A DNA stretch of 64,000 nt from a virus, in the IMG/VR virus record IMGVR_UViG_3300013113_000555, positions 1-64,000 of that record. One strand, given 5' to 3'. Both the position numbers and the translations under genes were made by a program. The notes beneath the pieces were generated by a model that ran no database searches, had not been told where the DNA came from, and was given only the letters and a program-made list of their open reading frames with translations. Positions 6,843 to 11,336 of the stretch are shown piece after piece (the first letter of the stretch is position 1; each line of letters opens with the position of its first letter).

Positions 6843-7034
6843 ATGTCGAATAGAGAAGTGGATGTTGATTTAGCAGAACTTTGGGCAACTAAAAATTGCA
6901 AAGATTGTTATGGCAGGGGTTATCAGCACTATCAAAATGGTTTTAATGGAACTTATCGTAAAGATAGACCGAGTGCAGACTATTATGCGTATTGCTCTTG
7001 CGTTGTAAAAAAAAGAAAGAAGTTTGGTAAATGA
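6843..7034 (+). CDS. Small zinc-finger-like protein (CxxCxGxG)
   Basis: This gene encodes 63 residues from the ATG at 6843, which has GGAGGTAA six bases upstream; an earlier in-frame start lies inside the terminator. It contains CKDCYGRGY, a DnaJ-type zinc-finger half motif, and a second pair CSC near the end, enough to bind one zinc. The stop overlaps the dCMP deaminase start (ATGA). A related C-x-C-x-GKGY segment occurs in the membrane protein at 11.3 kb. Confidence 0.65.
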   Translation: MSNREVDVDLAELWATKNCKDCYGRGYQHYQNGFNGTYRKDRPSADYYAYCSCVVKKRKKFGK

Positions 7035-7561
7035 AAAAAAAGCATATATGGGACTTGAGATTTTTAACCCTATCCAAAACAGTATCTACTTGGAGCAAAG
7101 ACCCTAGTACAAAAGTAGGGGCGGTCATAGTAGATAAAAACCGAAGGGTTGTTTCTCTTGGCTATAATGGTTTTCCTAAAGGTGTTAAGGATACAATAGA
7201 AAAACTAGAAGATAGAGAGCAAAAATATAAACATATGGTACATGCAGAGAGAAATGCCATGCTGTTTGCTAATAAATCTTTAAAAGGTTGTACCATCTAT
7301 ACATATCCTTTTATGCCATGCAGTGAGTGTGCGGCTATGATTATTCAAAGTGGAATAAAAAAAGTAGTTTCTTTTGATGAGGAAGACACACCTAGCGTGG
7401 GACGTTGGAGAAAAAGTTTTGAAATATCAAAAAAAATGTTTAAAGAGGCTGGTGTAAAAATTAAATTTTGCGGTATGACAAATGTTATTTCGGATACACC
7501 ACTCTATTGTCCACCAATAGATTTGTACTATTGCGGTCGCGATATTGCAAAACCTCAATAA
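7031..7561 (+). CDS. dCMP deaminase
   Basis: Deaminates dCMP to dUMP, feeding thymidylate synthesis. In its 176 residues the zinc-dependent deaminase motifs are complete: HAERN (near residue 70; His ligand and catalytic Glu) and PCSEC (near 96; two Cys ligands). The N-terminal WSKDPSTKVGAVIVD and GYNGFP are typical of dCMP deaminases of the T4 type. A second zinc site in the T4 enzyme is not obvious. The gene is followed by a 320-bp leader region, so it ends an operon. Confidence 0.92.
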   Translation: MKKKHIWDLRFLTLSKTVSTWSKDPSTKVGAVIVDKNRRVVSLGYNGFPKGVKDTIEKLEDREQKYKHMVHAERNAMLFANKSLKGCTIYTYPFMPCSECAAMIIQSGIKKVVSFDEEDTPSVGRWRKSFEISKKMFKEAGVKIKFCGMTNVISDTPLYCPPIDLYYCGRDIAKPQ

Positions 7562-7610
7562 AATATTATTTTAAAAGTTGCAGGTAACTTTTTTGTTAGT
7601 TTGAGGGGTG

Positions 7611-7616
7611 TATAAT
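7611..7616 (+). promoter_or_regulatory. Probable -10 box of the reductase leader transcript
   Basis: TATAAT with upstream GAGGGGTG. A start about 7 bases downstream falls at the first base pair of the leader structure (7623), which supports it as a promoter. No good -35 hexamer lies 16-18 bases upstream (CTTTTT), so an activator or phage sigma factor may be needed. Confidence 0.5.
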
Positions 7617-7622
7617 AATAGT

Positions 7623-7785
7623 GGCTGGAGATAAAGAGCGAATTTTTATTCACCGTTAAAGCGGCACACTCCGGTCAATAATTACAAGTAGACTGATAGA
7701 TAAAATTTAATTAAAGTTTGTTTATAACAAAAAGATTTATTACTCGTAAATCTACCAGTCTCTATAACAAAACGTGTCGCTTAAC
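7623..7785 (+). ncRNA. Structured leader RNA with pseudoknot upstream of ribonucleotide reductase
   Basis: Three long helices can be drawn by hand. P1: 7623-7630 (GGCTGGAG) with 7669-7676 (CTCCGGTC), 8 bp, two G-T pairs. P2: 7655-7667, in the loop of P1, with 7774-7785, 12 bp with one bulged A and one G-T pair, forming an H-type pseudoknot. P3: 7690-7701 with 7750-7761, 12 positions with one A-C mismatch, enclosed between the P2 strands. No open frame of any size uses the region. It lies between a -10 box and a terminator-like hairpin just before the cobalamin-dependent reductase gene, so a riboswitch or attenuating leader, or a separate small RNA, are the main possibilities. I do not find the cobalamin riboswitch consensus (no GCCACTG box). 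Confidence 0.6.
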
Positions 7786-7796
7786 CGTACAATACC

Positions 7797-7851
7797 CCCC
7801 AGTATTTGTATTAACAAAGTAGAGGTTAGTATAAATACTTGGGGTTTTTTT
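7797..7851 (+). terminator. Strong terminator/attenuator 33 bases before the reductase start
   Basis: 7797-7815 pairs with 7825-7844: about 19 bp with one bulged T and two G-T pairs, a 9-base loop (AAAGTAGAG), then seven T. It lies inside the leader of the reductase gene, downstream of the pseudoknot, in the position of a riboswitch expression platform. Read-through would be needed to express the reductase from the promoter at 7611. Confidence 0.85.
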
Positions 7852-7883
7852 ATTAATGCAGGACAACAGGAGATTAATATAAA

Positions 7884-10400
7884 ATGTCTAGGTTTACTAA
7901 TTCGTTTTCAGAAGAAACGTGGTATCAAAAATATAAGTTTAGTGGTGATGAGAGCGTAGAATGTACTTGGAAAAGAACAGCAGTCGATTTAGCTTCTGTA
8001 GAAAAAGACATAGTTGTTAGAAAAAGATGCGAAGAAGATTTTTATGATATTTTAGAGGATTTTAAGTTTGTTCCTGGTGGAAGAATTACAAGTAATGCTG
8101 GCACAGGATTAAAGGGAACTACTTATATTAATTGTTTTGTAGATGGTTTTGAAGGTGCAGACCTAGACTCCATAGAGGGCATCTATGCGACTCTAACCAA
8201 GCAAGCACAGATACTCAAGAGTGAAGGCGGCTATGGCTTCTGTGCCAACGTAATGCGTCCTTGTGGTTCTCATATTGGTGGTATTGCTAATCAATCTCCG
8301 GGAGCAGTAAAGTTTTTGGAACTATGGGATAAGTCGTCAGAAATTATTACAGCAGGTTCAAGTAAAAAATCAAGAAAAGATCAAAAGAATTTTATTAGAA
8401 AGGGTGCTCAAATGGTAACTATGAGTTGCTGGCATCCTGATATTATTGAATATATTGAAGCAAAAAAAACTCCCGGCCGTCTTTCTAAATTTAATATGTC
8501 TATTTTGTGTACAGATGAATTTATGGAAGCTGTTAATAAAGACAGGTCTTGGAATTTACGTTTTCCAAATTACGAAGAATATCCAAAACTCTATAAAAAA
8601 GAGTGGGATGGAGATATTGATAAATGGGTAGAAGTAGCAGAAGCTAGTAACGAAAGTGATAGCGAAGCTTGTGTAACGCATCATACTTTTGATTCTGCAA
8701 AAGAACTTTGGAATCTAATTATGGACAATACATACAACAGAAATGAACCCGGTGTTCTTTTTGTTGACAATATGAATAGAATGAATAATCTTCATTATTG
8801 TGAACATATTAATGCTACAAACCCCTGTGGAGAACAAGTGTTACCTATTGGTGGGGTGTGCTTGCTAGGTTCTATTAATCTAGTTCATTTTATTGATCCA
8901 GAAAAGAAAGATTGGAAATACGATGAACTAGAATCTGTTATCAATAAAGCAGTCAGATTTATGGATAATGTTAACGATAAGACAAATGTTCCATTAAAAT
9001 CCCAAAAGAAAAACCTAATGGATAAAAGAAGAATAGGTTTAGGAGTTATGGGTTATGGTTCTGCCCTTATTATGGCTAGAGTTAAATATGGTAGTAAAAA
9101 GGCTCTAGAAATGACAGAGCATCTTATGAATTTTATTACCAATGAGGCTTACAAAGCGTCTGCTTTATTGGCAAAAGAAAAAGGTGCTTTTCCTCTTTAT
9201 GATGAAGAAAAATATTTAAGTGGAGAGTTTGTTAAAAATCTTAATGTTGATACTATTGGATTGATTAAAAAGTACGGAATGAGAAACTCTCATGTCACAT
9301 CTATTCAACCGACTGGAAATAGCTCCTGCTATGCAAACCTTGTTAGCGGCGGTCTGGAACCCTTATTTATGCATGGGTACTTTAGAACATCTATTCAGCC
9401 AACACATCCTGATGGTCTTGGAGTGCCTAAGAATGTCGATTGGGAAAACAAGAAGTTCGATTTGCCTGCTGATGCCTCCGCCATAGAGTGGGAGTGGGTA
9501 AAAGAGGGGGATGAGAACCTTTTGGCAACTAAATTTGAAGGAAAAGTATGGAAATTTGACCGCACAAGAGGGCTTTTAAAGGAAGAATGGATAGAGGATT
9601 ATGGTGTATCTTATTTAAGGGGAATTGATAAATGGAACGCAGAAGCAGCTTGGGCTTCTTGCACTATGGACTTAGATGTTGACGCTCATGTAAACACTAT
9701 GTCTATATTTGCCAAATGGGTTGACTCTGCTATTTCTAAAACTATTAATCTACCAAATGAATATCCTTATGAAGATTTCCAAGATGTTTATTTTAAGGCT
9801 TGGAAAAAAGGAATCAAAGGATTTACTACTTATCGAGCAGGAACAATGACAGCGGTTCTTTCTGCTAGTTCTTCTATAGAAAATAAAGAAGAATCTGGGC
9901 TTCCAGAAGAAAGACCAAAAGAGTTAGATTGTGATGTTTATCACATTAAGGTAAAGGGTGAAGAATATTTTGTTCTTGTAGGTCTTTATAAAGGGGAAGT
10001 ATACGAAGTTTTTGCTGGTAAGAACGGCTTTATTGATAAAAAGATTAAAAAAGGCACTATTATTAAGCTGGGGCGTCCAAAAGGTGTTTACAAAGCTATT
10101 TTGGAAGACGGTCTTGAACTATCTCCTATCAATCAAACCTGTAGTGAAGAAGAAGATGCTCTAACTAGAATGACCTCTACAGCATTAAGAAGTGGTGCTG
10201 ATATACAAATGATTGTTCAACAGTTAGAAAAAGTTAAAGGCGATATGAATTCTTTTGCCAAAAGCATGTCTAGAGCATTGAAAAAATATATTCCAGACGG
10301 TGCAAAAGAAGAAGGGTGTTGTCCAGAATGTGGTGGTAAAACTCTAATCAGGCAAGAAGGTTGTGTTCAGTGTACTTCTTGCGGTTGGTCAAAATGTTAA
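7884..10400 (+). CDS. nrdJ: Class II (adenosylcobalamin-dependent) ribonucleotide reductase
   Basis: Reduces ribonucleotides to deoxyribonucleotides using adenosylcobalamin. The 838-residue protein has NATNPCGEQ (about residues 310-317), holding the active-site Asn, Cys and Glu. It also has SIQPTGNSSCYANLVSGGLEPLF (phosphate binding) and WVDSAISKTINLP followed by GIKGFTTYRAGT. The C-terminal four-Cys tail CPECGGKTLIRQEGCVQCTSCGWSKC is the hallmark of monomer/dimer class II enzymes. No ATP-cone is seen at the N-terminus. A ribosome site (AGGAG) lies 11 bases upstream. No small subunit gene is adjacent, as expected for class II. Confidence 0.93.
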   Translation: MSRFTNSFSEETWYQKYKFSGDESVECTWKRTAVDLASVEKDIVVRKRCEEDFYDILEDFKFVPGGRITSNAGTGLKGTTYINCFVDGFEGADLDSIEGIYATLTKQAQILKSEGGYGFCANVMRPCGSHIGGIANQSPGAVKFLELWDKSSEIITAGSSKKSRKDQKNFIRKGAQMVTMSCWHPDIIEYIEAKKTPGRLSKFNMSILCTDEFMEAVNKDRSWNLRFPNYEEYPKLYKKEWDGDIDKWVEVAEASNESDSEACVTHHTFDSAKELWNLIMDNTYNRNEPGVLFVDNMNRMNNLHYCEHINATNPCGEQVLPIGGVCLLGSINLVHFIDPEKKDWKYDELESVINKAVRFMDNVNDKTNVPLKSQKKNLMDKRRIGLGVMGYGSALIMARVKYGSKKALEMTEHLMNFITNEAYKASALLAKEKGAFPLYDEEKYLSGEFVKNLNVDTIGLIKKYGMRNSHVTSIQPTGNSSCYANLVSGGLEPLFMHGYFRTSIQPTHPDGLGVPKNVDWENKKFDLPADASAIEWEWVKEGDENLLATKFEGKVWKFDRTRGLLKEEWIEDYGVSYLRGIDKWNAEAAWASCTMDLDVDAHVNTMSIFAKWVDSAISKTINLPNEYPYEDFQDVYFKAWKKGIKGFTTYRAGTMTAVLSASSSIENKEESGLPEERPKELDCDVYHIKVKGEEYFVLVGLYKGEVYEVFAGKNGFIDKKIKKGTIIKLGRPKGVYKAILEDGLELSPINQTCSEEEDALTRMTSTALRSGADIQMIVQQLEKVKGDMNSFAKSMSRALKKYIPDGAKEEGCCPECGGKTLIRQEGCVQCTSCGWSKC

Positions 10401-10412
10401 AGAGGTATTAAA

Positions 10413-11336
10413 ATGGACTATAATAATCCAGAAGATTTATTAGAAGCTTATGAAAACGGGCTTCTAGGTGCTGAGTGTGATCCAGAAGATGTTAGAAAGC
10501 TTCTTGGTGAGTTGCCTATGCCTATGTTTGGTGCAGCAGCATATGAGCTAGAAGAAAGTGGAAAGGGTAAGTTAAGCCTTCCTTTTAAGTCTTTGTTAAA
10601 ATTTGATCCTAATTTTGGACCTAGTGAAAGACAAACTACTGGCGATTGTGTTTCACACGCTATTAGAAATGCTATAGATATTACTAGAGCAGTAGAGATT
10701 GATATAAAGGGTGAGACAGAAGCTTTTATTACTAGAAGTGCCACTGAAAATGTTTATCAGTCAAGAAGTCATATGGGACAAGGAATGACCTGTAGTGGAG
10801 GCTCTAGATACGTTAATTCACAAGGTGGTGTTTTACTAAGAAAGAAATATCCTGATTGTGATCTTTCAAAATATAATTCTTCTCTTGGTGCTAAAAAAAG
10901 AATTCCAAAATCTATTTATATTAATGAAGCATCAAAACATCCTGTAGAAACCATATCTCTTATATCTTCTATCGAGGAAGCAAGAGATGCTATTGCTAAT
11001 GGTTATGGACTAGCAGGTTGTAGCGGTATCGGCTTTAGTAGCACAAGAGACAAGTATGGTATAGCCAAAAGAGGCAAAGGCTGGAATCACGCTATGGCTT
11101 GGATTGCTTGTGATGATACCGGAGAAGTTTATGATGAAATGCTATTCTTGATACAGAACAGTTGGGGTCCGTGGAATAGAGGGCCAAAACGTCATGGACA
11201 ACCAGATGGAAGTTTTTGGGTAAGAGAAAAAGATGCAAAATCTATTTTAGCTGCAAGAGGAACATTTGCTTACAGTTCTGTAAAGGGTTTTCCCGCCAAA
11301 CAATTACCAGATTACGGACTAGGGGGATGGTCATGA
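10413..11336 (+). CDS. Papain-like cysteine peptidase (C1 family)
   Basis: This 307-residue protein has the three catalytic landmarks of papain: QTTGDCVSHA (Gln of the oxyanion hole and nucleophile Cys near residue 79), WNHAMAW (His near 225) and IQNSWGPWN (Asn near 249). The Cys motif differs from the usual QGxCGSCW. There is no signal peptide and no obvious inhibitory propeptide beyond about 70 residues. It starts 12 bases after the reductase and overlaps a membrane protein gene by ATGA; a holin-like gene follows two genes later. This position suggests a role in lysis or virion maturation. Confidence 0.8.
   Translation: MDYNNPEDLLEAYENGLLGAECDPEDVRKLLGELPMPMFGAAAYELEESGKGKLSLPFKSLLKFDPNFGPSERQTTGDCVSHAIRNAIDITRAVEIDIKGETEAFITRSATENVYQSRSHMGQGMTCSGGSRYVNSQGGVLLRKKYPDCDLSKYNSSLGAKKRIPKSIYINEASKHPVETISLISSIEEARDAIANGYGLAGCSGIGFSSTRDKYGIAKRGKGWNHAMAWIACDDTGEVYDEMLFLIQNSWGPWNRGPKRHGQPDGSFWVREKDAKSILAARGTFAYSSVKGFPAKQLPDYGLGGWS

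Follow-up and report, generated by a model that had tools for sequence, protein, structure and literature searches.

A structured leader separates a deaminase gene from nrdJ

The window, i.e. the whole stretch of 64,000 nucleotides analysed here, comes from a virus record of 89,972 bases. It contains a gap (7562-7883), the leader DNA of which is single-copy in that record, flanked by a dCMP-deaminase gene (7031-7561; PHROG 174) and a class II ribonucleotide reductase (RNR) gene (7884-10400). The gap and the gene behind it comprise the following features:

7573..7592, no strand assigned: palindrome AAAAGTTGCAGGTAACTTTT, 5' of the promoter; may bind a regulator or weakly terminate the gene before it
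7607..7616, + strand: extended -10 promoter GGTGTATAAT (GGTG plus TATAAT); start predicted at 7623, 7 nt downstream
7623..7630, + strand: 5' strand of helix P1, GGCTGGAG
7631..7654, + strand: J1/P2 region with a recurrent UAAAGARCG, then CACC preceding the pseudoknot strand (from alignments)
7655..7667, + strand: pseudoknot strand PKa, GUUAAAGCGGCAC; consensus GUUAAAGCRRCAC
7669..7676, + strand: 3' strand of P1, CTCCGGTC; 8 bp with 7623-7630, which U7622-A7677 could extend
7687..7764, + strand: P3 domain, predicted to fold into a long hairpin between P1 and PKb; outer pairs 7690-7695/7756-7761
7774..7785, + strand: pseudoknot strand PKb, GUGUCGCUUAAC; 12 bp with 7655-7667, one bulged A
7796..7851, + strand: intrinsic terminator, hairpin 7796-7844 followed by T7845-7851; dG -22.3 kcal/mol; begins 15 nt past GUGUCGC
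7868..7872, + strand: ribosome-binding site AGGAG, read in the sequence
7884..10400, + strand: nrdJ, class II RNR, first gene past the RNA; NCBIfam TIGR02504 at 474 bits (above cut-off); PHROG 84

The original prediction had placed the start set by a TATAAT on the first base of an 8-bp stem, had paired a strand in the loop of this stem with a downstream strand over 12 bp, and had put a terminator hairpin with T-run between this structure and a class II RNR; reading of the sequence and the protein family match bore out all of these elements. The further 12-bp hairpin that it had enclosed within the pseudoknot lies where predicted (7690-7701/7750-7761, 5-6 bp + 5 bp), and the long-range closing helix of P3 is predicted in 24 of 25 homologues, but its exact inner pairing is ambiguous in the window, since in the minimum-energy fold only the outer part is paired in this way. 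The 230-nt fold of the window has a z of -4.4 relative to dinucleotide shuffles, to which the terminator contributes much.

The sole other exact copy of GGTGTATAAT in the window falls within a tail-gene open reading frame. A palindrome of the form AAAAGTT-N5-AACTTTT is present at a similar place in three homologous loci (L004, L080, L083) and, less perfect, in two others (L011, L005), and no further copy within 2 mismatches was found in the window. We set aside a leader peptide, as the window leader contains only short open reading frames, none of them conserved by eye.

The RNA precedes RNR operons of different classes

Homologues were collected by a protein scan with NrdJ and by six DNA-pattern scans that used motifs of the RNA only, without RNR sequence; these patterns need near-exact motifs, so that diverged copies would escape them. 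The complete arrangement was found in ~40 viral contigs, representing ~23 clearly distinct sequences, with an RNA of roughly 220 bases (range 165-230 nt) among phages. All copies have the promoter GTGTA(T/G), with the onset of P1 3-9 nt past the first 10 promoter bases, and among 24 aligned homologues GGTGTA is kept in all but one while GTGTA is invariant. In many copies a UAAAGARCG-like sequence stands ahead of GUUAAAGCRRCAC, which is followed after 1-4 nt by the P1 partner strand and then by a 76-116 nt A/U-rich domain and GUG(U/C)YGC. False scan matches lay within coding sequence and lacked P1. In cellular genomes pattern matches came without promoter and P1 apart from two phage contigs, and the remainder look like chance matches in coding sequence. 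These two contigs (L119, L120), which carry both the RNA and nrdJ, belong to the Lokiarchaeota bin Hel_238_bin13 (MAG) and are probably co-binned phage DNA.

The RNA-only pattern scans and the protein-based scan alike found the RNA only ahead of RNR operons. The RNR large subunit begins 49-399 nt downstream in 49 of the 50 located copies, including those of L092 and L099, where the match sets in within a longer RNR gene, the start of which falls in this range; in the 50th copy the contig ends 385 nt past the RNA, and its near-identical relatives L092 and L099 carry RNR. No copy without a downstream RNR was thus detected where the contig is long enough. The enzyme itself varies, being NrdJ_Z in the window and L109, class Ia NrdA in L083, another NrdA in L139 and L104, and RTPR-like in L110 and L105, where the best match lies below the curated cut-off. 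The leader nearest to that of the window is the one of L107, which precedes a class I nrdA, and the leader of L105 (RTPR) is nearest to that of L087 (NrdA), indicating that the leader was retained while the enzymes following it were exchanged. As several of these phages have their genes in a common order around the locus, the RNR linkage is not fully independent evidence.

In eleven loci (L087, L088, L089, L090, L092, L105, L109, L110, L112, L139, L016) a gene for a 70-111 aa protein with a lysine-rich tail lies between RNA and RNR. The sequences of these proteins, which have no NCBIfam match and only marginal PHROG matches, identify them as one new family.

Inspection of the DNA ahead of the RNR genes did not reveal the RNA in seven phage records (Mosig, KLEP7, RHph_I1_18, an Acinetobacter phage, a Loktanella phage and two huge metagenomic phages), and a search for its exact pattern across the complete records of nine related contigs with RNR gave no match. 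BLASTN against named phages gave only a chance 35-nt match for the window leader and no match for the L139 leader. Six contigs (L006, L007, L008, L009, L023, L024) carry an nrdJ that is 71-75% identical to that of the window, but nowhere in their records is the RNA pattern matched exactly, and a different gene, resembling a zinc-dependent deaminase, stands in front of nrdJ.

Covariation supports P1 and the pseudoknot

Base pairs were counted in 23 clearly distinct sequences, using a chimeric alignment in which the helix segments fill 36 columns without gaps, as MAFFT misaligns P1a because the spacing between promoter and P1 varies. In this alignment 98.6% of the helix cells are paired as compared to 81% in shuffles, sliding the partner strand by 1-3 columns lowers the value to 32-47%, and the covariation score of the helices was reached by no shuffle. 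P1 (98.1% of cells paired) shows two-sided changes at 7/7 counted pairs. Its register was chosen as the best pairing within a small search range, which introduces a bias; in a control for this choice shuffled P1 partners averaged 9.3 versus 16.7 for the real ones, and 1.2% attained the real median. In the pseudoknot helix (PK) 99% of cells are paired, two-sided changes occur at 2/9 pairs and five pairs never vary, a constancy that is partly imposed since the PK motifs belonged to the search patterns. PK is, however, also present in seven loci that came from the protein scan alone (L001, L002, L005, L011, L014, L016, L022), and the PKb:PKa duplex has a mean z of -4.8, alternative partners being near 0. 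For the P3 helix 12-18 pairs are expected in most copies compared to ~5 in shuffles; in the window's own copy support is weak (8.2 versus 6.3).

Lack of covariation among homologous leaders would have spoken against the original prediction, and for P1 and PK covariation was found. The comparative evidence is decisive against a chance origin of the structure, and we are highly confident of both the structure and its linkage to RNR. An HDV-like ribozyme was considered and rejected: its order P1-P2-P3-P3'-P1'-P4-P4'-P2' does not fit, as PKa comes after the first inner hairpin region and is only 1-4 nt away from P1'.

The 3' end is a terminator lacking a conserved antiterminator

Most copies have a separate terminator hairpin that starts 11-18 nt past GUGUCGC, a narrow spacing. 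In a second branch (L087, L088, L104, L105, L130, L139, L149) T6-T7 follows the PK strand without a gap, and the role of terminator stem could fall to PK itself. The hairpin of L016 is followed by a short T tract only and was overlooked by the terminator scan. The first start codon lies only ~20-45 nt past the terminator, a gap too small for a second promoter.

No other conserved pairing partner was detected among the homologues for PKa, PKb or the two arms of the terminator (mean z -0.6 to +0.25), and the mutually exclusive antiterminator usual in riboswitches and attenuators is thus not visible. UAAAGARCG resembles PKa, which probably explains the slight signal of PKb towards the 5' region (mean z -0.6). 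The riboswitch or attenuator layout originally proposed therefore stands as far as the conserved pseudoknotted leader with its own promoter and terminator is concerned, but not with respect to an antiterminator or alternative fold.

Comparison with known RNAs

None of the 4227 families of Rfam 15 matched the window or 15 other loci at the gathering score, and a lax scan of the window leader returned chance-level matches only. The original prediction had raised a link to adenosylcobalamin, which the reductase of the window uses, and identity with the described nrdJ motif; neither is borne out. The cobalamin riboswitch (RF00174), which can precede cobalamin-related genes, was found in 0/16 records at E <= 10 and its scan of the window was empty, and the RNA described here also precedes the cobalamin-independent class I nrdA. 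The nrdJ motif (RF03034), reported ahead of nrdJ in Streptomyces (PMC8079986), is likewise a structured RNA upstream of an RNR gene and is regarded as cis-acting, but its model has 80 positions, whereas the present RNA is a phage pseudoknot of 165-230 nt that is also found before nrdA. RF03034 gave nothing near its cut-off in the 16 records (best score 10.2 versus 40.3 bits, in one record) and no match in the window's own record. That the leader is an adenosylcobalamin riboswitch or the described nrdJ motif is thus highly improbable.

A leader RNA ahead of an RNR gene is also found in Mesoplasma florum, where the 2'-deoxyguanosine-I riboswitch, a variant of the guanine riboswitch (PMC8872408), causes premature termination of the RNR gene on binding a deoxynucleoside (PMC8872408, PMC11251524); in contrast to that RNA, the present one matches nothing in Rfam. 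The manA and wcaG motifs are structured leader RNAs from marine metagenomes and phages whose signal is unknown (PMC2864571), but they precede other genes and did not match the present RNA in the Rfam scans. We found no description of the RNA in the open-access literature; one published elsewhere is possible.

A cis-acting leader of phage RNR operons is the favoured reading

We propose that the RNA represents a new family of pseudoknotted 5' leaders that control phage RNR operons via termination at their own 3' end, a reading to which we assign a probability of roughly 55%. Promoter, terminator, RNA structure and the linkage to RNRs of different classes can be read from the compared sequences; regulated termination, action in cis and the kind of signal we infer. 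Transcription would start at or near P1 from the GGTGTATAAT promoter, and the RNA would fold P1 first and next the A/U-rich hairpin domain P3, with PK closing last, just as RNA polymerase arrives at the intrinsic terminator; in one branch PK together with T6-T7 would itself serve as terminator stem. The expression of RNR would then be set by how frequently polymerase passes the terminator, which would happen part of the time or under some condition. Since this leader is shared by RNRs of classes I and II, any signal that it receives should be common to all RNRs and not a cofactor, nucleotide supply or phage timing being candidates.

That the RNA is strictly linked to RNR, and that a further promoter would not fit in, speaks for a role in cis. 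In line with a riboswitch, a conserved structured domain is located in the 5' leader of functionally related genes, but an expression platform that excludes terminator or ribosome-binding site was not found, as the homologues have no conserved alternative pairing; in the second branch PK itself possibly builds the platform. The lack of such pairing leaves three options, namely that PK folding decides on termination, that a protein or polymerase binds, or that a small RNA always terminates. The last of these, a free-standing noncoding RNA of ~165-230 nt, would likewise combine a compact fold with a stable 5' end and a terminator. It would be fully terminated before RNR, act in trans on a protein or on RNA of host or phage, and remain beside RNR as part of a conserved module. 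This explanation is a serious contender, albeit the less probable one: the RNA is, at the sequence level, bounded by its own promoter at P1 and by a terminator in nearly every copy, has no conserved antiterminator, and shares neighbourhood genes in part of the family. It was, however, never found away from RNR in ~40 contigs, even with differing RNR class, so that occurrence independent of one downstream gene is not seen on contigs long enough to judge, and, as no promoter fits between terminator and operon, RNR would need readthrough from further upstream. Conversely, the gene order shared by several phages makes the linkage partly dependent, and related nrdJ genes of other contigs lack the RNA, both of which weaken the case for a cis-acting leader.

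Within the cis reading, binding by a protein is a sub-mechanism: the small lysine-rich protein might autoregulate, or RNA polymerase might be bound for readthrough. The latter would be in the manner of HK022 put RNA. This RNA and the Bacillus EAR element are processive antitermination RNAs, which are structured, lie ahead of terminators and need no antiterminator pairing, in agreement with its absence here. The likeness is that of a structured transcript RNA ahead of terminators; the structures differ, put RNA consisting of two hairpins. Among the sequences examined the small basic-tailed family occurs in most second-branch and RTPR loci as well as in L016 and L109, and nowhere else, but as its gene is missing from the window and most NrdJ loci it is not a general regulator, and we regard a protein-bound leader as unlikely. 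Somewhat less doubtful, yet tentative, is that the cis-acting leader gauges nucleotide supply itself, e.g. dNTP or the ATP/dATP balance, with PK closure being or triggering the terminator for any RNR class.

RNR supplies the deoxynucleotides for copying the phage genome, yet little is known of the control that phages exert on their own RNR. That the RNA is kept while the RNR class is replaced suggests that control acts on the pathway rather than through the cofactor, and the family offers a defined sequence with clear predictions for compensatory mutations. If the RNA bound a deoxynucleotide it would constitute a new class of riboswitch, with the 2'-deoxyguanosine riboswitches as its few precedents, and if it acted in trans it would be a widespread unannotated phage RNA.

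Further genes of the RNR loci

The RNR genes of L022 (3001-6390) and L092 (reverse strand, 1177 aa) are much longer than their relatives and may thus contain inteins or other inserts. Irrespective of the RNR class, a conserved gene is located 3' of RNR or nrdB (window 10413-11336; L107 8997-9923; L083 7819-8748); it has no PHROG match and by eye resembles a cysteine peptidase.
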